Shown here: positions 35,088 to 46,380 of the stretch, in pieces
How the letters are laid out: every line of letters starts with the position of its first letter
Position numbering within the stretch: position 1 is the first letter of the stretch
Assembly: GCA_021849805.1 (NCBI GenBank)
Contig: JAJZSL010000001.1
Location: 1 to 64,000, forward strand
DNA length: 64,000 bases
Source of the DNA: a bacterium
GTDB taxonomy: Bacteria > Verrucomicrobiota > Verrucomicrobiia > Chthoniobacterales > UBA6821
Direction: 5' to 3'
Notes under the pieces: generated by a model
What the model saw: the letters and a program-made list of their open reading frames with translations, nothing else
The model's database searches: none
What the model was told of the DNA's origin: nothing
Made by a program: the position numbers and the translations under genes

Positions 35088-36365
35088 TCAGATTCCTTTT
35101 AATCCACTGAGGAGTAATTCTGTATTGGAGTTAGTGATTTCTATGTTCTGAATAAGAATTTGAATGGCTTCACCCGCAGGAAGCTCCAAGAGCTGTGAAC
35201 GTAATTGAAGGATACGCTTTAATTCTTCAGGGTGATAGAGTAGCTCTTCTCGACGTGTCGCTGATTTAATAAGATGAATTGCTGGAAAAATTCTCTGTTC
35301 GGCAATAGAACGATCGAGCATAACTTCCATGTTGCCAGTTCCTTTAAACTCTTCAAAAATGAGATCATCCATGCGACTTTGAGTATCAATAAGAGCTGTT
35401 GCTAGAATAGTTAAGCTTCCTCCTTCCTCCACATTTCGTGCTGAGCCAAAGAAGCGTTTTGGTTTTGAAAGTGCTCTGCTATCAATGCCGCCACTCATTG
35501 TTTTTCCTTTTGTACTTATTGCATTATTATAGCCCCTAGAGAGACGTGTTAAACTATCGATTAAAATAACAACATCTTTACCAAGCTCTAAAAGTCGCTT
35601 GGAGCGCTCAGAGACTATTTCAGAAACTTGAAGATGGCGGTTGGTTGGTTCATCAAAAGTTGAACTGATGATTTCGCACTTAAGACTACGTTTTAAATCT
35701 GTTACTTCCTCTGGACGTTCATCAACTAATAGAACGATAAGATGAATATCAGGATAATTAGTACAAAGAGCTAAAGCGATATTCTTGAGTAACATTGTTT
35801 TTCCTGCACGAGGGGGAGCAATGATTAGTCCTCGTTGCCCCATGCCAAGAGGAGCAATTAAATCAATAACTCGTCCTGTCAAGTTTGTATTCTTAGGCTG
35901 CTCCAGGAGAATACGCTTCACTGGAAAAGTGGCAGTGAGTTGCTCAAAATCTTTTGGAATCTTCCACTCCTCAATAGGAATACCTTCAATTTCAGTCAAT
36001 TCATGCATGATTAAACGATTCGAATGAAGAACACTCAGCATTCCTTTCAAACGAAGTCCAGGCTTAAGGTTATATTTTTTAATCATGGGGAGGGGGATAA
36101 GAACATCTTCTATAGATGGCTTCAAATCAAAAGCGAGCCACCTAAGTACAGCTTCGTTAGGAGTGAATTCTAAGATTCCTTCTGTGCTTAAGCTTCCTCC
36201 AGAGTGCAAATGATGGTGAGCTTGAGATAAAATCAATCCATGAAAAGAAGAATGATTGGAGCTGAGATTGAGTGACTGACTCCGCTTGAGCAATTGATAA
36301 TAGCTTAGATGATGCAATTCATTGAGGAGAAGAGTGTCGGGTTGTAAGCTTGTTGATAGCGCCAT
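35088..36365 (-). CDS. rho: Transcription termination factor Rho (first copy)
   Basis: The 425-residue ATP-dependent RNA helicase terminates transcription. The N-terminal RNA-binding part (about 55-125) precedes the RecA-like domain: Walker [34 protein letters not shown] (catalytic Glu), [20 protein letters not shown] (Walker B), the Q-loop [12 protein letters not shown] region, and the R-finger segment [20 protein letters not shown]. The catalytic machinery looks intact. It has a shorter N-terminus than the second copy at 53890, without the basic extension. It follows coaE by 16 bases. The start has no alternatives of note. Confidence 0.93.
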
Positions 36366-36381: not shown

Positions 36382-36981
36382 TTACGATTTTAAAATTGAC
36401 AAGCCGAGCATCATGATTTGCTGTTCCAAAAAGTCGATTATTCCATCATTCCAGACTACGTAAGTAGCACGCGATATTTTTTCTTGCAATGGCCACTGAA
36501 GTTTAATCAGAGCATGAGCAACTCGAGAGGTCAAATTTCTATAGTTAGTAAGACGATGTAAAAGAACTTTTTCACAAGCACCAACAACAACAACATCATC
36601 AAAAAAATCTTTGAGATCATTCTCATAGAGAAGTGGGATTTCAGCCAAAAAGAAAATTTTTCGATTCCCCTTAGCAGCCTGTGCTCTAGGAAGCCATTGA
36701 TTTCGTAAGCGTGGATGCAGTATTGCTTCGAGTTTTTGTTTGCTTCGAGAATTTTTAATGAGATGAGCACGTAATCGTACACGATCTATTTCTCCTTTGT
36801 CACTATAAATTGCTCTGCCAAATGCTGTAATTAATTCTTGAATTACGTTTTGATCATTTTCTAAAAAATTGGTGATTTCTTGATCCGCAATAAAAGGAGA
36901 AACAGCTAGCCTCTTTGCTAAAAATGATGTCGCCATTGACTTCCCTGCAGCTATGCTACCAGTAATTGCAATACTAGGCAT
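36382..36981 (-). CDS. coaE: Dephospho-CoA kinase
   Basis: CoaE phosphorylates dephospho-CoA in the last step of CoA synthesis. The 199-residue protein has Walker A ITGSIAAGKSMATSFL (GxxxxGKS), then ADQEITNFLE and LEAILHPRLRNQWL (family HP motif), FLAEIPLLYEND and VVVGACEKVLLHRL. The usual D-AD motif is slightly altered (FIADQE), which is common. The gene is followed by rho 16 bases downstream, and the two probably form an operon. It is divergent from the Nudix gene. Confidence 0.93.
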   Translation of the reverse strand: MPSIAITGSIAAGKSMATSFLAKRLAVSPFIADQEITNFLENDQNVIQELITAFGRAIYSDKGEIDRVRLRAHLIKNSRSKQKLEAILHPRLRNQWLPRAQAAKGNRKIFFLAEIPLLYENDLKDFFDDVVVVGACEKVLLHRLTNYRNLTSRVAHALIKLQWPLQEKISRATYVVWNDGIIDFLEQQIMMLGLSILKS

Positions 36982-37569: not shown

Positions 37570-39603
37570 TTAGTGAATGAAAGAGAAACTATTATTTTTT
37601 TTCGAGTGAAGCTGATGCAAAAGATTTCCATTTTGATTCAAAATTCGAGGTGTAACAAAAATAATCAAATTTTTTTTAATTTTTTTATCGACTTGGTATT
37701 TAAATAGTTTTCCAGCTAATGGAATACTACTAAGCAGTGGAATTTTATCATTAAATTTTTGAATATCTTCTCGAATCAATCCCCCTAAGACAACAGTTTG
37801 ACCATCCCAAACAGTAACGGATGTATGGACTTCTCTCACTGTAAATACTGGTTGGTTGATTGTATTCGTTGTTAATGTAGAAGAAAAAGGAACAGTATTA
37901 ATGTTTGTACCTAGTGAACTATAACCTACAGTGTTAATTGGACTTCCATAGTTAATGAAACCATCAAAATCTGTAATTTGAGGGTGTAGTTCTAATTCAA
38001 TGCTATAACCGTCTGGTGCTATTGTTGGTTTAGCTTCTAAAATAACTCCTAAATTTTTTGTTGTCCACGTGTTAGGGAATGAAGGAGTAATTGTAGGGGG
38101 AGTTGTATAGAAAGCACGTTCACCACTATTCGTCGTTGATTGTGGAATTTGTGGTGGACTGTACTCTGTTGGATAAATAAATTCATCAATGATTTTAACA
38201 ATTGCCTGCACACCATCCTTGGTTGTTACATGAGGTGCAGCCATCAAATTTACTCCCTTTTTTCTTTGAAGTGCTTGAAGTGTTACTTCAAGTTGTGCAT
38301 TATTATAAACACCTGTAATACCGAAAATACCAGCCATCTTTTCTGCTTCTTTGTGAGAGCTAGAACTACGCTCAATAGCAGTATCAATGGAGTTTTCTTC
38401 TAAGTACTGATTCTCAGAGTTTAGATCATGTACTGATTGAATTTCTGAGATGGAAGTTGAAGAATTTAGTGATCCGGGAGAATCACTTTTCTCCTTAGTA
38501 TTTAAATAAATACCACTGTTGCCAATTTGTAGGCCTTTAAGAATAGAGTTTATTCCAAGTTTTTCAAATTGATCTTGAGTAACTTCGATAAATTTTGTTT
38601 CTATTGAGATTTGTAAAGGCTCTTGATAATTGCAAGTAGAAAGCAAAAAATCAGCAAGATCTATGTTTTCTTTAGTATTATGTAACAAAAGTTTATGATT
38701 TTCTTGTGAATAATTAGCAAATGATCCTTCTGGAAAAGTAATTCCTTGATGTTGAAGATAATTTTTTGCAGAAAGAGGATTACTCGGATCAATATTAGTA
38801 TTATAATCAATACCAAAAATAGAATTCGATTTTATTATATATTCTTTATTAAAAAAAATCTTCTTTTCTTCAAGATCTGATAAAAGGACAACAGCATAAG
38901 GATCAATACGTATTGCAAGATTTGCTTGTTTTGCTAGATATTCTAAAGCAGTTCTTATTGGAACTTGTTTGAGATCTAGCGAAATATGAGGTTGTACTGA
39001 TTTTTCTAAAAGTGAAGAAGAGTTAGCAGTAGATTTTTTTTCTTCTAATTTAAGATTTAGAACAATATTAATACCTTTTTTTTCATTGTCATAATCAATA
39101 CTTTTTTGTTTTAAATAATCAATAGCTTCAGGAAGAGGTACATTTTCTAAACTTATTTGTGAAATGATAATTGATGATAATTTTGAAATTAGTGTATTTT
39201 TACTATCTGAAAAATCAGTTTGTAGTTGAGAATTTTCATTATTATCTAAAGCATCACTATTATTTTTAGAAATTTCCCATGATTTATCAACATCGTCAAT
39301 TAATAGATTAGCTGTTTGTTGATAGTTTTCCAAATTCAGCTTTTTTTCTTTCTTATTAATTTCAGTTATTCTAGAAATTGCTTTCTTATTATTTGGATTA
39401 ATTATGAGTATTTTATTATAATACTTTAAAGCTAATTCAATGTCATTTTTTCTTTCAGCATCAAGTGCTTTCTCTAATAATGAAGTAATAGTAGTAGTAT
39501 TCTTTATTTGATTAACTTTATTTGCATGCAACTGGTCGTTTAAGAATACCAGCAGTATGATACAAACATATAAAGAAATAATTTTCATCATAAATTTATT
39601 CAT
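37570..39603 (-). CDS. Secretin, Amuc_1098/PilQ type (second of a tandem pair)
   Basis: The 677-residue outer-membrane channel subunit starts with a signal peptide (ISLYVCIILLVFL) and a TPR-like hairpin (LEKALDAERKNDIELALKYY). Two N-domain-like repeats follow (GINIVLNLKLEEKKS and IRTALEYLAKQANLAIRI). The secretin core at the C-terminus includes TVWDGQTVVLGGLIREDIQ, KIPLLSSIPLAGKLF and LIIFVTPRIL, the hallmark VLGGL and SIPLLG-like motifs. A Ser-rich insert lies around residues 380-410. It overlaps the stop of the upstream secretin gene by eight bases and appears to be the last gene of the pilus-like operon. It resembles its neighbour, so it is probably a duplication. Confidence 0.85.
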   Translation of the reverse strand: MNKFMMKIISLYVCIILLVFLNDQLHANKVNQIKNTTTITSLLEKALDAERKNDIELALKYYNKILIINPNNKKAISRITEINKKEKKLNLENYQQTANLLIDDVDKSWEISKNNSDALDNNENSQLQTDFSDSKNTLISKLSSIIISQISLENVPLPEAIDYLKQKSIDYDNEKKGINIVLNLKLEEKKSTANSSSLLEKSVQPHISLDLKQVPIRTALEYLAKQANLAIRIDPYAVVLLSDLEEKKIFFNKEYIIKSNSIFGIDYNTNIDPSNPLSAKNYLQHQGITFPEGSFANYSQENHKLLLHNTKENIDLADFLLSTCNYQEPLQISIETKFIEVTQDQFEKLGINSILKGLQIGNSGIYLNTKEKSDSPGSLNSSTSISEIQSVHDLNSENQYLEENSIDTAIERSSSSHKEAEKMAGIFGITGVYNNAQLEVTLQALQRKKGVNLMAAPHVTTKDGVQAIVKIIDEFIYPTEYSPPQIPQSTTNSGERAFYTTPPTITPSFPNTWTTKNLGVILEAKPTIAPDGYSIELELHPQITDFDGFINYGSPINTVGYSSLGTNINTVPFSSTLTTNTINQPVFTVREVHTSVTVWDGQTVVLGGLIREDIQKFNDKIPLLSSIPLAGKLFKYQVDKKIKKNLIIFVTPRILNQNGNLLHQLHSKKNNSFSFIH

Positions 39604-41899
39604 TTCTATTACTATCTTTTTTTGATAGGTTAAGAAAATAGACTGTCACAAAGATTAATAAATTACGTTTAATCTTATGTTCAGAAGTAGAATGAAAAAG
39701 CTGTCCTGCTAAAGGAATGCTACTGATAAGAGGAATTTTTTCTTTAGTTGTTTTTATATCTTCTCTCATTAGTCCTCCTAAAAGAACAGTTTGTCCATCT
39801 TTTAACACTATTTGTGTATCAACTTCACGAACACTGAAAATTGGTTGATTGATTGTATTTTCTGTTAAAAGTACACTTGCTGTTGAAGTGATTAAATTTG
39901 TTTGTCCAGCAAAAAAAACTGGTGCTTGAGAATAAATAGGATTTCCATAATTAACAAATCCTTGAAATTCAACGATCTGTGGAGATAATTTCAACTCAAT
40001 ACTATTATTATTGCTATTAATAGTAGGCTCGACTTCTAGTTGAACTCCAACATCTCTTTTCTTAAAAGATGATGGAGTCGTTGGAATAGCAGGATTAATT
40101 CCAGTTCCCTGACTTTGTGGTATTTGTGGTGGAGAATAATCAGAAGGATAAGGAAATTCTCTTGCAACTCTAATGGTTGCTTTTTTTCCGCTTGAAACAG
40201 TAATTTTAGGTGCTGAAATTAGATCTACTTCTTTATGCTGATTAATTGCATTGATAATAATTTGGAATTGAGGATTTGTAAGTATTCCAGCAAGAGTAAG
40301 TGTTCCTATTGTCGCACTTGCTGGAGCTCCATATAGTAACATTTCTAGTGATTGAGAAGTAATAGCTAATGATGTTACTTGTGATGGTGCAGTATAGTTT
40401 TTCAATTCATTACTAAAATTTTCTTTTTTCAAATGGCATCCAAGTTGGAAAATTCCTAAGAGCCAATTTATACCTCGCTCTTTAAGATCATCGTGCTTTA
40501 TTTCAAGAAATCGTGTTTCAATTTCAATTTGTTCTTCTGGTTTTGTAAAAGAACCTTGTAATAATGACTCTATTAATTTAAGATTTGAAATTGTATTCCT
40601 AACAATAAGTATATTTTTTGAATGAAGGTAATGAAGATTAGACCCCTTAGGAAAAGTAACTCCTTGCGAAGTTAAAATATTTCTTATACACTCAGAATCA
40701 GATAGCATAGATTTTTCTTTTTTTAATTCATGATTAGTTATATCAGTATTAAAATAAGTAAAAATTCTAGAGGAAATTTTATACTCTTGAATAGAAAATG
40801 GCTCAATTGGTTCATTATTATCGATAATAGCAATTGCATACTGCTCTATTCTCATTTGTAGATTAGCCTGTTGAACTATATATTTAATAACTTCTTCTAA
40901 TGGTGTATCGGTAAGTGAAAGTGTGATCTTAGGTTCAGGTGACAAATTAGCTAAATCTAAAGCTAGCACAATGTTTATTCCTCTCTTTGCATTGTCACTC
41001 TCTTCAGTATCAAGTTTAATAGACTGATCTTTAATCTCATCAAGTGCAGATTGTAATGGAGTATCAATAAACTCAACTTTAGGTATAATAATTCTATGGA
41101 TTTTATTAACAATATCCTGATTACTTCTTTCCAATGTTAAGGCATTAATTTGATTATTTTTTTGTTGAATTATATTATTAGAAAGAGGAAAATTCCAAGA
41201 ATGATCAATACTTGAAGCCATCAGACCTATTGTTTGATTTTTATTAGCAAAAACATTTTCTTCATTTTCTTTTTTAATAATATTTAACCCAATTTGTGCA
41301 GCTTGATTATAAGGATCAATGTTTAGTACTTCATTAAATTTTCTATTTGCTAAATCAAATTTTCCTATTCCATAAAAATCAATACCCATTAGTAAAAGAG
41401 ACTCAACGTCATTAGTTTTAAAACGTTTTTTTCCCTCCTTATTACTTATTTTTTTTAAGCTCTCCAACAAAAAATTTTTAGGAGGATAATCAAAATAATA
41501 CTCTTTAGATTCAATAATTTTTTTTATACATTCTGCATTCTTATTCTGATGAAGTACAATAAATTTTAGAATAAGAATAATAGCAATTTTATTTAGTGAA
41601 TATAAAACATCTTGATAAAGAGAATCAAATTTAACCTTACTATTTTCTAAAGAATCTATCGCAATTTTATAATTTTGAAATGCTGAGCAGTAATTTTTAT
41701 TTGAAAATTCACTTTTTCCTATATCAATTCTTTCTTTTGCATAAGCTTGCAGTGTATTATCAATAACTTCTTGTTTTTCATTTTTATCATTCTTGACTAC
41801 TTCAATAGCATAGAGAGTAAAAGAAATATTATTTGTTAAAATAAAGAAAAAAAGTATTACTTTATTTATTTTCAGATAGTATCTGATAGTATAAAACAT
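39596..41899 (-). CDS. Secretin, Amuc_1098/PilQ type (first of a tandem pair)
   Basis: The 767-residue secretin has an N-terminal signal/anchor (VILFFFILTNNISFTLYA), TPR-like helices (about 60-225, with FKTNDVESLLLMGIDFYG and LANRKFNEVLNIDPYNQAA), and secretin N-domains (GINIVLALDLANLSPEPKI; VIKYIVQQANLQMRIEQYA). The secretin core ends with VLKDGQTVLLGGLMREDIK, KIPLISSIPLAGQLF and NLLIFVTVYFLNL. Secretins form ring channels in the outer membrane for type IV pilus-like or type II-like systems. It is longer than the next gene by an extended TPR region. The two overlap by eight bases. It lies 24 bases after the Amuc_1099-like gene. Confidence 0.87.
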   Translation of the reverse strand: MFYTIRYYLKINKVILFFFILTNNISFTLYAIEVVKNDKNEKQEVIDNTLQAYAKERIDIGKSEFSNKNYCSAFQNYKIAIDSLENSKVKFDSLYQDVLYSLNKIAIILILKFIVLHQNKNAECIKKIIESKEYYFDYPPKNFLLESLKKISNKEGKKRFKTNDVESLLLMGIDFYGIGKFDLANRKFNEVLNIDPYNQAAQIGLNIIKKENEENVFANKNQTIGLMASSIDHSWNFPLSNNIIQQKNNQINALTLERSNQDIVNKIHRIIIPKVEFIDTPLQSALDEIKDQSIKLDTEESDNAKRGINIVLALDLANLSPEPKITLSLTDTPLEEVIKYIVQQANLQMRIEQYAIAIIDNNEPIEPFSIQEYKISSRIFTYFNTDITNHELKKEKSMLSDSECIRNILTSQGVTFPKGSNLHYLHSKNILIVRNTISNLKLIESLLQGSFTKPEEQIEIETRFLEIKHDDLKERGINWLLGIFQLGCHLKKENFSNELKNYTAPSQVTSLAITSQSLEMLLYGAPASATIGTLTLAGILTNPQFQIIINAINQHKEVDLISAPKITVSSGKKATIRVAREFPYPSDYSPPQIPQSQGTGINPAIPTTPSSFKKRDVGVQLEVEPTINSNNNSIELKLSPQIVEFQGFVNYGNPIYSQAPVFFAGQTNLITSTASVLLTENTINQPIFSVREVDTQIVLKDGQTVLLGGLMREDIKTTKEKIPLISSIPLAGQLFHSTSEHKIKRNLLIFVTVYFLNLSKKDSNRNE

Positions 41900-41923
41900 A
41901 TAGTAATAAACTAGTTAGATAAT

Positions 41924-42985
41924 TTAGTCTAAAAAAGGAATTGAATAATAATTTCCATTTCTTTCGATAGTAACTTCTTGGTTATTGATTTTTATCAACT
42001 TATAAGCTTCTGGCTGATAATTTTTTTTCGCCTTTTCTTTAAGAAATAAAGGCTCTAATTCAAAAGAATCATTATAACTGACAAAAATTTTTTTAGTTAC
42101 TGATACAATTGGATATTCGAAGATTATACCCTCACTAATAGTAACTAGTGTAGATTGTGGGTATAGTGTACTTTTTTTAATCAGTGTAAATAATTCATTA
42201 TCTAAAATATTTTTTATCATTAATTCACTCGTATCATACCAGATCCCTCTATAAAGTATTTTTTTCCTTTCGTAGCTCTGAATAACTAAAGGAAGACCTG
42301 ATAATTTTTCTCCAAGTTTTACTCTAATAATTTTTATACTAAAAACTTTTTTTCCTTGCTCATCAATAGTTGGTATTAAGGTTTGAGGTTGAATTTTAAA
42401 AAAATCCTCACCATTTTCTTGCATTACTCCTACAAAATCTAAGTAATAATTAGTTTTACAAATTGAAGCTTTATTGCATCTTAACTTTGTCCAAAGTAAT
42501 GGATGTGAATATGGATCATTAGGATTTGATGATTCTTTTCCTGGATTTTTATACGGATCATTACCTTTCCACTCTTCTAAATTAGTAAATCCATCTCCAT
42601 CTGAATCTTCATTAAGAATATTTGGATTTGAGTAGTCTAGATTATTTTTAATTAACCATTCATTTTTTATTGGTGGTAAAATTTCTTTTTCTTCTTCATA
42701 GAGATCATGTAAAATATTATTTTTACTAAAATATCTTCTTGAAGAAAATAGCATGATATCATTTGTTCTTTTATTCCAAGAAATATTCTCAATCATTTGT
42801 AAAAAATTTTTGTTTTTAGTTTGTATAGACCTTTCCATAATAATTTCAGAGTAAGAATTTTTTTTTGTATTGACAGAGAAAAAATTTTCTTTTGAAAATA
42901 AATTTTTCAGTATTGTAGATATAGAGATGCAGAATATTATTATACTTATTATTAAAAAATAGTATGATGCTTTTCGTTTATTCAT
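41924..42985 (-). CDS. Amuc_1099-type pilus-locus protein
   Basis: The 353-residue protein has an N-terminal membrane anchor (about 8-27, YFLIISIIIFCISISTIL) and an extracytoplasmic part. Around residue 127 it carries a calcium-binding-like repeat (NEDSDGDGFTNLEEWKGNDP, D-x-D-x-D-G type), as in the Amuc_1099 family. The rest is beta-rich. Its position between the Amuc_1100-like gene and the secretins agrees with the Akkermansia order. I have not seen a further conserved motif. It overlaps the upstream gene by one base (TAATG). Function: part of a pilus-like complex of unknown role. Confidence 0.8.
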   Translation of the reverse strand: MNKRKASYYFLIISIIIFCISISTILKNLFSKENFFSVNTKKNSYSEIIMERSIQTKNKNFLQMIENISWNKRTNDIMLFSSRRYFSKNNILHDLYEEEKEILPPIKNEWLIKNNLDYSNPNILNEDSDGDGFTNLEEWKGNDPYKNPGKESSNPNDPYSHPLLWTKLRCNKASICKTNYYLDFVGVMQENGEDFFKIQPQTLIPTIDEQGKKVFSIKIIRVKLGEKLSGLPLVIQSYERKKILYRGIWYDTSELMIKNILDNELFTLIKKSTLYPQSTLVTISEGIIFEYPIVSVTKKIFVSYNDSFELEPLFLKEKAKKNYQPEAYKLIKINNQEVTIERNGNYYSIPFLD

Positions 42986-43806
42986 TATTCAAAATCAAAA
43001 AAATCTATTTTCATATGAATACTTAATTCTTCATGGTCAAAGATTATTTTAATTAAATCTTTTTGATGATTTAAAAAATGGAGTGGGCCTTTTTGATTAC
43101 TGTTTTCGACACTTACTTTTTCTATAATAAAATAATAAGGACTAGTAACAATAAGATTGATGAAGTTTTGAAAAGAATTTTCATCTGTTTTGAAACTTAG
43201 TAATAAATAGCCCATTTTTTCGATTTTTAATGAATCTAAACTGAAACTGTAAGTTTCATTTTCAAATAAAAATTCACTGATAGTTAATGAATTATATTCG
43301 AAAAGATGATCAGCGATCCAAAAAAGTAAAAATTCTTCTTTACTTTTTTTTATTGCATCTTCTGAATTACGAATAGCTACTTTTTCTTCTATTAGTCCTA
43401 AAAAAAATGAATTAGAGAATATAATGCTCTTTTCCTCACTTTTTTCTTTGAGATAGTCAAGATCTTTCTGTAGTTGCATTTGGAATTGATTGCTGTTAAC
43501 AACAATTCGTTCTAAAGGCAAGATAATTCGATGTTTTTTTAAATAATCAGAAAGATAGTCAATGCTGTACAGATTATCTGTTTGAGCAATGGTGAGTTCT
43601 TGAAGTTCTTTCTCAGTAAAAGGAGTTCTTTGATTTTCTAGATTTGCTTTTACAACTTTGTAATCTCTTTTTGTACAATAAAAATCTAAAAAGACTTTAG
43701 TAATCCAAATAGTGATAATTAAAACTACAACAGTACTAGCTTTTATTAGCAAAATTACTTTTTCTTTGTTTTTCTTAAAGAAGAAAAAATGATAATCCCG
43801 AAACAT
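42985..43806 (-). CDS. Amuc_1100-like (PilO-type) pilus-locus protein
   Basis: The 273-residue protein has one N-terminal membrane helix (about 18-42), then a periplasmic domain that starts with a helical region (about 45-165). A FQMQLQKDLDYLKEK segment matches the FQN.L coiled region of Amuc_1100. It ends with a strand (SIHMKIDFFDFE) that corresponds to the terminal QVSLNLVHF strand. PilO-like proteins pair with PilN in the inner-membrane alignment complex. In Akkermansia the homologue is a highly abundant outer-membrane-associated protein studied for host effects. The gene lies 48 bases after the PilM-like gene. Assignment relies on topology, position and a weak sequence pattern. Confidence 0.72.
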   Translation of the reverse strand: MFRDYHFFFFKKNKEKVILLIKASTVVVLIITIWITKVFLDFYCTKRDYKVVKANLENQRTPFTEKELQELTIAQTDNLYSIDYLSDYLKKHRIILPLERIVVNSNQFQMQLQKDLDYLKEKSEEKSIIFSNSFFLGLIEEKVAIRNSEDAIKKSKEEFLLFWIADHLFEYNSLTISEFLFENETYSFSLDSLKIEKMGYLLLSFKTDENSFQNFINLIVTSPYYFIIEKVSVENSNQKGPLHFLNHQKDLIKIIFDHEELSIHMKIDFFDFE

Positions 43807-43854
43807 TCTATGGGACTAGCATATGAAGACAACTATTGCAAATAGAATCTTCTT

Positions 43855-45408
43855 TTACTTATTTTGTATCTTGAGCTGAATTGGATTTTTAAGAATTAAG
43901 TGAATTTTAAATGGATATGCATATGCACTTCCATCAGCTGAAGAATATGACAATAAGATTTGCTCTGGTTTATCAATTAAAAAAAGTGCTGATTTTTTGA
44001 GCTCATTAATGAAGTCATTGATGACTTCTGATTGTCGCGGATTCTCTAAATAAAGTCCTTCAAGTTCAAGTTCTCGTGTAGATACATACTCATTTGTTAT
44101 TTCTTGATTAGAAATAGGAGATAGCTTGGTAATCCAAATATAGCGTTTGGGAAGAGCATTCTGTAATTCGTTAACGATTTTAATCCATAAATTATGTGCT
44201 TCAATAAAATGAAAAATTACTAACTTAGTTTCTTCTATTTTCTTAAATTTTTCGATTATTTTATCAGATTTAATCAACTGTGATTTTCTTTGATCAAAGA
44301 GTTCTTTAGCCTGGTTGATCTTATGATGATAAGCATTGATTTCGTAGCACCAATAAAAAGACCACAGCAAAAAAGTAAAAATAACTAGAAAAACTGCTCC
44401 AAGAAAATAAGAACTTTCTCGTTTTTGATTTTTTTTAGTAAGTAAAATTGGTGGACACAAATCTAAGCAACATTTTTTTTCAAAAAATGTAATGCCTCCA
44501 AAAATTACACTCGAACTGATAGAATTTTTTTTAATAAATGATGAAATTGTAAAATCAAAAAGTGGATGAAGCTCTACTAGTTGATCTAGATCATCTAAAA
44601 AAAATGTTTCTATTAAATTTTTTTGAAGATAGGAAAATAGTTGATTTTTATGAGTATTTTCCCCAACTAGGAAAATTTTATTAGGGATTATTTTTTTTGA
44701 TTTTAAATATTTTAAAAGAGAAAGAAGAGAAGTGATGATTTTCTCTTCAGTTTCGGTATGAAGATTCAATTCTACTCCTTCTTTTAAAAGAGGAGCTAAT
44801 GTGTAGCTAGTTAGTGCGTTGTTAGATTCTTGAAGAAGAATATTACTGACATTATCTTCCAGGTTTAAAATTAGAGTTGAGCCATGATTTTGATCAATAA
44901 TCTCAAGAGTGCGCTGGATAGCAATTGGAGTGGCTAAAATAATCAATCTGCTTAATTGATCTTCAGGAATAACCTCTATTAAAGAATCAAGAAATTCTTT
45001 CTTTGTAGCAATATAGGTAACATTGACTTTATTTACTTGAGTGGAAGCAAAAATCTTGTAGTTCCAAACTAATTTGCTAAGAGGCAGAGGAAAAATATAT
45101 TTTGCCTCGCAAGTAATAAGACGAGGGAGAATGTTCTCCAAGCCTGGAGGAACTTCGATAGGGATTGTCTTAATGAAAGCTTTATGCGCAGGTAAAAAGC
45201 AATGAATTTTTAGACACTGACTCTTACAAGCAGTGAGAGCTTCTTGAAACCTAGCTAGCTCCTTTGCAGTAAATAAAGGTTGATTTTTCTCTAGTAAAAA
45301 ATTGAATACATCACTTTTTTCTATTTTCCATACACCATTTTTCTTTTTTGAAAATTCAGCAAAAAGAACTTTTTTTTCTTTCCAATAGAGAAAAAATGAT
45401 GTTGACAC
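43855..45408 (-). CDS. pilM: PilM-like protein fused to a PilN-like module (Amuc_1101-type)
   Basis: The 517-residue protein starts with an actin/FtsA-like ATPase domain similar to PilM (about 1-310): the opening LYWKEKKVLFAEFSK, VPPGLENILPRLITCEAKYI (SHS2-like) and the later KIIPNKIFLVGENTH motif. A single transmembrane helix (about 333-355, FLGAVFLVIFTFLLWSFYW) then leads to a PilN-like coiled region (AYHHKINQAKELFDQRKS) and a ferredoxin-like domain with LPKRYIWITKLSPI. The fusion of PilM and PilN domains into one chain is unusual for T4P but is compatible with the Amuc_1101 type. It is the first pilus gene after the epimerase gene (21 bases). Confidence 0.8.
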   Translation of the reverse strand: MSTSFFLYWKEKKVLFAEFSKKKNGVWKIEKSDVFNFLLEKNQPLFTAKELARFQEALTACKSQCLKIHCFLPAHKAFIKTIPIEVPPGLENILPRLITCEAKYIFPLPLSKLVWNYKIFASTQVNKVNVTYIATKKEFLDSLIEVIPEDQLSRLIILATPIAIQRTLEIIDQNHGSTLILNLEDNVSNILLQESNNALTSYTLAPLLKEGVELNLHTETEEKIITSLLSLLKYLKSKKIIPNKIFLVGENTHKNQLFSYLQKNLIETFFLDDLDQLVELHPLFDFTISSFIKKNSISSSVIFGGITFFEKKCCLDLCPPILLTKKNQKRESSYFLGAVFLVIFTFLLWSFYWCYEINAYHHKINQAKELFDQRKSQLIKSDKIIEKFKKIEETKLVIFHFIEAHNLWIKIVNELQNALPKRYIWITKLSPISNQEITNEYVSTRELELEGLYLENPRQSEVINDFINELKKSALFLIDKPEQILLSYSSADGSAYAYPFKIHLILKNPIQLKIQNK

Positions 45409-45429: not shown

Positions 45430-46380
45430 CTAAATTTTTGATCGAAAATAATCGATTGTTTTTTTTATCCCCTCATCAAAATGAACGACTGGCTCCCAAC
45501 TCAGAATTTTTTTTGCGAGAGTTATATCGGGTTGACGTACTTTAGGATCGTCAACAGGGAGTTTTTTGAATTCTATCGTTGATTGTGTAGGAATAAGCTT
45601 TAGAATTGCTTCTCCAAATTCTTTGATAGTCATTTCACAAGGATTGCCAATATTGACTGGCTTGTGATAGTGGCTCATCATGAGGCGATAAATACCATCA
45701 ATAAGGTCAGAAACGTAGCAAAAACTCCTTGTTTGGCTGCCATCACCAAAAATAGTAAGTGGTGCATTGGTTAATGCTTGATTAATGAAAGCAGGTACAA
45801 CACGACCATCACGTAAGCGCATACGAGGACCGTAGGTGTTAAAAATACGAACAATTTTTGTGTCCATATTGTGAAATGTATGGTAGGCCATCGTAATTGC
45901 TTCAGCAAATCGCTTTGCTTCATCATAAACGCCCCGCGGGCCTACAGGGTTAACATTACCCCAATAATCTTCTGTTTGTGGGTGCACAAGGGGATCCCCA
46001 TAGGTTTCTGAAGTTGATGCGAGAAGAAATGCTGCTTTTTTTTCACGCGCAAGACCAAGCGCATTGTGTGTTCCAAGAGACCCAACTTTGAGAGTAGGAA
46101 TAGGAAGCTCCAAGTAGTCAATAGGACTTGCTGGGCTAGCAAAATGCCAAACATAATCCACATGACTGGGAACAAAAATGTATTCAGTAACATCTTGTCG
46201 AATAAACTGGAAGCGTTCGTGACCTGCTAGGTGTTGAAGATTATGGGGGCTTCCTGTGATAAAATTATCAATAACAATAACGTAATGCCCTTCGGCAAGT
46301 AATCGATCAGTCAAATGAGAACCAAGGAAGCCGGCTCCACCAGTGACAACACTAATGGGAGAAGCAGAATGTTGAGTCAT
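45430..46380 (-). CDS. NAD-dependent epimerase/dehydratase, UDP-glucuronate decarboxylase (UXS)-like
   Basis: The 316-residue enzyme is an extended short-chain dehydrogenase: [15 protein letters not shown] (NAD-binding glycine motif), [15 protein letters not shown] (UXS-typical), [27 protein letters not shown] with the catalytic YxxxK, and [17 protein letters not shown]. The [11 protein letters not shown] and YGPRMRxxDGR segments are the signatures of UDP-glucuronate decarboxylase, which makes UDP-xylose. The catalytic triad is intact. It provides a sugar donor for surface glycans. It precedes the PilM-like gene by 21 bases on the same strand, so the pilus-like operon may start here. Confidence 0.9.

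Follow-up and report, generated by a model that had tools for sequence, protein, structure and literature searches.

Two paralogous secretin genes lying in tandem in a pilus-like locus are not peculiar to the genome that supplied the stretch of DNA analysed here (64,000 nucleotides, referred to as the window), but are common to six families of the order Chthoniobacterales. The locus in the window is very probably the orthologous chromosomal counterpart of the MUL2 locus of Akkermansia, as judged from the shared gene content, the CoaE and Rho genes downstream and the sugar epimerase gene upstream. Sequence trees show that a single tandem duplication of the secretin gene took place in an ancestor of the six families. 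The resulting paralogues, designated A (upstream) and B (downstream), have diverged in a periplasmic linker, in a presumed gate loop and in the C-terminal tail, and both have been kept adjacent beside a single set of platform genes.

Gene content of the locus

The original prediction described five adjacent minus-strand reading frames at 37570-45408 as an Amuc_1098-1101-like locus with two secretins of 767 and 677 residues and an overlap of 8 bases. All five frames are open at these positions, the lengths and the overlap (shared by the start of B and the end of A) agree with the ORF coordinates, and the identification is backed by NCBIfam HMMs, gene order, flanking genes and relatives. The genes and their conserved neighbours are as follows, all on the minus strand.

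45430..46380, minus strand: NAD-dependent sugar epimerase-like gene, conserved upstream neighbour (sequence, and several relatives)
43855..45408, minus strand: Amuc_1101-like protein, 517 aa, GTG start (NF045709, E 1e-27, under its cut-off)
42985..43806, minus strand: Amuc_1100-like (PilO-like) protein, 273 aa (NF038287, E 2e-8; own HMM, 5e-53)
41924..42985, minus strand: Amuc_1099-family protein, 353 aa, with a D-x-D-x-D-G loop (NF042425, E 5e-29, over its cut-off)
39596..41899, minus strand: secretin A, upstream paralogue, 767 aa, with TPR domain, N-domains and secretin core (NF042912, E 4e-144)
37570..39603, minus strand: secretin B, downstream paralogue, 677 aa, with shortened TPR part, N-domains and secretin core (NF042912, E 3e-149)
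36382..36981, minus strand: dephospho-CoA kinase-like gene (CoaE), conserved downstream neighbour (sequence, and same neighbour in relatives)
35088..36365, minus strand: transcription termination factor Rho-like gene, conserved downstream neighbour (sequence, and relatives)

In the Amuc_1101-like protein a PilM-like domain is joined to a membrane part of the PilN type. The Amuc_1100-like and Amuc_1099-like genes are separate in the window, with a 1-base overlap; in the sister species (L072, L074 and L075) they are fused into one ORF of 563-580 residues. The D-x-D-x-D-G loop of the Amuc_1099-family protein, to which attention had been drawn as calcium-like, is present but hardly distinctive, being common in the family (80 of the 129 Amuc_1099 homologues). 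A NUDIX-like gene on the opposite strand lies between the secretin locus and the CoaE- and Rho-like genes.

Among the five locus proteins, only the Amuc_1099-family protein clears its curated NCBIfam cut-off. The best match of both A and B is NF042912 (Amuc_1098 family), covering positions 36-794 and 146-803, respectively, of the 805 in the model. With scores of 482 and 498 bits they do not reach the equivalog cut-off of 750 bits and are therefore regarded as homologous paralogues rather than strict equivalogs; the less diverged A and B of family f10 exceed this cut-off (877 and 866 bits). A secretin domain and a weak STN domain could be identified by Pfam in each of the two proteins, and the suspicion that one of them might be a pseudogene is not borne out, both frames being open with these domains kept.

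AlphaFold2 monomers of A and B (mean pLDDT 74 and 71, pTM 0.38 and 0.43) match solved secretin structures, the best match of both being the competence PilQ of V. cholerae (E 4.5e-15 and 2.5e-14). TM-scores over whole chains are low, as one would expect of single subunits from a ring in which the arrangement of the domains is not fixed, and the models may be taken to back domain identity only.

No other part of the window is as AT-rich as the locus. Between positions 36000 and 46000 the five genes form an island with a GC content of 0.25-0.30 and a GC3 of 0.13-0.21, in surroundings of about 0.41 and about 0.30, respectively. In relatives the locus usually also has a lower GC content than its flanks, by far less than in the window.

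Distribution of the tandem pair

We surveyed 213 genomes of the order Chthoniobacterales, to which named GTDB contigs assign the family of the window. Families f1, f2, f7, f8, f10 and f13 have two Amuc_1098-type secretin matches, families f3, f4, f6, f9, f11 and f12 mostly have one (with a few more or split matches, taken as found), and family f5 has none. At least two copies are present in 54 of the 59 genomes with a match in the six tandem families, and the remaining five contain fragments, with contig ends directly visible in L075 and L164. A clear loss of A alone or B alone was not seen in any of these 59 genomes, small ones included. The question raised with the original prediction, whether tandem secretins occur in related genomes, is thus answered by an old, clade-wide duplication.

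In the loci examined the gene order is 1102-1101-1100-1099-A-B wherever the contig covers enough, with 1102 absent in some, and there is one set of 1099-1101 genes per secretin pair. As called, A and B share exactly 4 bases in 17 of 43 pairs, and most of the other pairs are at most 21 bases apart. Two other arrangements were observed outside this group. In a genome of another order (G132, family f19; L092:7210-13068) an independent duplication has given rise to a tandem secretin pair following 1101-1100-1099, and Akkermansia-like genomes (L094, L096 and L098) have a second, unlinked secretin of the Amuc_1098 family without 1099-1101 genes of its own.

Origin of the pair

Family tree analysis of 124 secretin sequences places the 45 A proteins in one clade and the 45 B proteins in another (SH-aLRT 100 each), with the single-copy proteins of the order outside both and the f12 protein as the first branch. 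Separate A and B clades are also obtained with a mixture model on 55 sequences. In the tree of Amuc_1101 proteins the tandem state appears as a single change, its 33 rows lying on one side of a branch with support 99. One clade for each paralogue and one change on the Amuc_1101 tree together imply one duplication, with no single-copy loss observed. A recent duplication or an assembly artefact was rejected in view of the 35% identity between A and B, the lack of a long DNA repeat and the orthologous pairs in many genomes.

The tandem pair of f19 groups with itself (SH-aLRT 99), and in f15 and f18 the linked and orphan copies cluster inside their own families. One old duplication shared with the Akkermansia-like families was rejected by AU tests (p 1e-51 for A with the orphans, p 5e-5 for B with the orphans), as was membership of the f19 upstream copy in A (p 0.0016). 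That the f15 and f18 orphans represent separate duplications of their own is weakly supported by the sequences (p 0.046 for orphans, 0.006 for linked copies). As the orphans are not tied to A or B, nor the f19 upstream copy to A, the two-secretin state appears to have arisen at least three times in the sampled genomes of the Verrucomicrobiota, including Akkermansiaceae-like families and one other order. The trees are quick trees with several long branches, which calls for caution with the AU tests too.

Features that distinguish A and B

The paralogues are most clearly distinguished by the lengths of two segments, which in the window are located as follows.

40928..40957, minus strand: short linker after the first N-domain motif of secretin A, 10 residues (8-13 in all 45 A)
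38986..39051, minus strand: long linker after the first N-domain motif of secretin B, 22 residues (21-58 in all 45 B)
40088..40126, minus strand: short presumed gate loop of secretin A, 13 residues (13-14 in all 45 A)
38089..38151, minus strand: long presumed gate loop of secretin B, 21 residues (15-45 in all 45 B)

The loop was located by alignment, as it follows the segment that aligns with VPFQTG of XcpQ. We take it to be the central gate from general knowledge of GspD; a literature search for papers on GspD gate mutations found none. The linker lengths again do not overlap in another set, partly shared with the first, of 42 named A and 42 named B proteins; for the gate loop one B value of this set, 4, falls under the A range. 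The A and B proteins of the window still obey these length signatures (10/13 and 22/21) at 35% identity; between A and B of the same genome, identity is 35-52%. Single-copy relatives have linkers of 25-56 residues and presumed gate loops of 15-42 residues, which resemble B and not A, so A looks like the derived form. Among the other families with two copies, the orphan copies of f15 have a shorter linker than the linked copies, the linkers of the two f19 copies differ (34 and 8 residues), and the f18 copies show no difference.

Fixed single residues that separate A from B were not found at a strict threshold, and only a dozen are one-sided. The C-terminal tail motifs are suggestive as a distinguishing feature: PL[GPS]L occurs in 26 of 45 B and in no A, and PGDxS in 19 of 45 A and in no B, both being missing in the window. 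Core motifs are kept in both A and B, and dN/dS values of 0.03-0.18 (for congeners or close species, with unsaturated dS) indicate that both paralogues are under purifying selection in relatives.

The two secretins of the window had originally been set apart by TPR length and by a Ser-rich insert. The difference in TPR length is real but reflects a genus-level truncation of B, which has lost most of its TPR part in this genus and measures about 870 residues in most other genera. The Ser-rich insert is also there, but it sits in a loop that is variable family-wide and has low confidence in both models. These peculiarities of the pair in the window thus represent a change in one genus and a variable loop, respectively.

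The locus in the genus of the window and the rest of the genome

The genome of the window has been assembled to 1.68 Mb in 18 contigs, and encodes two further secretins, i.e. a T2SS-type GspD on contig C11 and a T3SS-type SctC on contig C3. The GspD gene adjoins four prepilin-like genes and GspK/L/M-like genes. An ordinary T2SS or competence operon, the alternative considered with the original prediction, was rejected as the identity of the locus, as was a T3SS operon; a separate T2SS operon with its own GspD was found on C11. As predicted, the window has no pilin or assembly ATPase gene; candidates, which may serve either the T2SS or this locus, lie on other contigs, where two GspE/PilB-type ATPases, two GspF/PilC-type proteins and one lone prepilin could be identified.

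A PilT-family match above cut-off was not found in this genome, in which part of contig C17 reads N; a partial PF00437 ATPase match borders this long stretch of N (L116:1-8001 and the neighbouring part of C17). At E<=1e-85 the six genomes available for the genus gave no PilT match, compared with two to four in the family's other genus. Amuc_1102, which in many relatives sits between the epimerase gene and 1101, is missing at the locus in the window, with no match upstream of the locus or in six genomes of the genus (part of C17 again being N); control genomes were also empty with the Amuc_1102 model, but the Amuc_1102 family was detected in relatives by the same model and by our own HMM. An alignment with relatives shows that the window and its genus have lost the nucleotide-binding motifs which PilM retains in most of these relatives, and the C-terminal tails of both secretins are short in this genus. 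Comparison of sister species within the genus gave dN/dS values of 0.12-0.18 (secretins) and 0.21-0.31 (platform genes). In family f8 (G046 and G054) both secretins are retained and PilT was likewise not found.

Two further observations concern this genome and its sister species. The secretin on C3 (L117:6600-8753(-)) scores over the SctC cut-off (TIGR02516, 339 bits), and on this basis the bacterium, with its small genome, may possess type III secretion and be associated with a eukaryotic host. Two T2SS prepilin-like genes of this genome contain the peptide SVLSVLDRASTGAR, and in a sister species the CoaE gene contains a similar one, SVYSILDDASTGATP (L112:15558-16672(-) and L074:483-2675(-)). 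The peptide lies inside or ahead of proteins that are unrelated, and resembles a repeat element translated in frame.

Proposed function

The locus encodes the form taken in Chthoniobacterales by the type-IV-pilus-like envelope complex of the Amuc_1098-1101 (MUL2) kind, with a duplicated secretin. We propose that A and B are non-redundant subunits of one outer-membrane complex on a single Amuc_1099/1100/1101 platform, where they would form one mixed ring or two rings obliged to cooperate. Taken as a whole, i.e. a MUL2-type locus, a single tandem duplication, and non-redundant A and B on one platform, we consider this explanation slightly more probable than its contrary. On this view the two paralogues would have distinct roles on the one inner platform, most likely within a single complex in the outer membrane; the arguments for such a joint complex are the joint retention, the length signatures, purifying selection, the single platform set, the frequent 4-base gene overlap, and persistence without a detected PilT. 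Joint survival without detected PilT, in the genus of the window and in f8, is the main argument that both secretins would be needed by the remaining machine. More tentative, and in our estimate rather less than an even chance, is the specific arrangement of A and B in one hetero-oligomeric ring, or an obligate pair of rings, on the single platform with a gate of two loop lengths. Strict alternation of A and B is made less likely by the odd subunit number of many known secretin rings. The small number of residues that tell A from B is a further point against the proposal.

Joint retention favours joint function and is compatible with one mixed ring or with two rings, but it would equally follow from two separate channels that are both needed. 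Such homo-oligomeric channels might use one platform and differ in cargo, timing or place, or one of them might serve another machine, e.g. a T2SS. Both paralogues indeed have a complete secretin core and N-domains, and the second copy of Akkermansia-like genomes, lying apart without its own 1099-1101 genes, shows that a second channel can exist outside the operon. We nevertheless regard two separate channels as rather unlikely, as neither copy was seen lost alone among the 59 genomes and the two genes remain together in a single operon, in many cases with an overlap. That A and B are interchangeable, either copy alone being sufficient for function, appears highly improbable: the same domains are kept in both copies and an abundance report on A. 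muciniphila (PMC4960237) could be cited in favour, but A and B of the same genome are only 35-52% identical with different loop lengths, they fall into separate clades without traces of recent gene conversion, and they share no long DNA repeat.

For the genus of the window a decaying remnant without function has to be considered as well, in view of the GC content of 0.25-0.30 (about 0.41 in the rest of the window), the long branches, the missing 1102, the undetected PilT, the degenerate PilM motifs and the shortened B. This seems improbable, since the five ORFs are open, their order is conserved, the core motifs are kept in both secretins and the dN/dS values between sister species are low (0.12-0.18 and 0.21-0.31, as above). 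The present function of the locus in the window is nevertheless less sure than that in relatives, because it is AT-rich and fast-evolving. With the cytoplasmic motor side reduced, i.e. without detected PilT, with a degenerate PilM and without Amuc_1102, the non-redundant complex proposed above might in this genus be, speculatively, a static or slowly assembled port for adhesion or uptake rather than a retracting pilus.

Significance

To our knowledge, secretin rings have so far been described as products of one gene. If the proposal is true, a mixed ring or obligate pair would mean a secretin machine of two paralogous subunits since an early ancestor of the six families. A pair retained in a large part of an order, in which linker and presumed gate differ consistently between the paralogues, lends itself to questions on mixed rings and gate loops. 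The at least three secretin duplications around a locus tied to mucin or glycan capture in Akkermansia bear on how this pilus-like machine works, and the genus of the window offers a picture of what stays once the motor side is reduced. The kind of locus itself is already known; tandem secretins within a MUL2-type locus are not reported in the literature searched.

Comparison with known systems

The closest known system is Amuc_1098-1102 (MUL2) of Akkermansia muciniphila, which has the same 1101-1100-1099-secretin order and the same CoaE and Rho flanks. It differs from the locus in the window, where there are two tandem secretins, the PilM motifs are degenerate and Amuc_1102 is missing in the genus. 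In the Akkermansia-like genomes examined, one secretin is linked to the locus and another, of separate origin, is an orphan. CoaE and Rho have been described as neighbours of MUL2 in Akkermansiaceae (PMC13174399); passages of the same paper describe MUL2 as less conserved in Chthoniobacterales and, within those passages, do not mention two secretins. A wider search of the open literature for tandem or mixed secretins gave nothing relevant.

The tandem loci found elsewhere in the order (e.g. in Spartobacteria bacterium LR76, L174, apparently the genome of an isolate) share orthologous A and B, gene order and flanks with the window, but differ in that Amuc_1102 is mostly kept, the TPR part is full in both secretins, PilM is intact and PilT is present. 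With the secretins of type IV pili and T2SS, PilQ and GspD (e.g. 6w6m, 5wln), the secretins of the locus have the core fold and the N-domains in common, and they differ from these by an N-terminal TPR domain, a large variable loop and the presence of two paralogues per operon.
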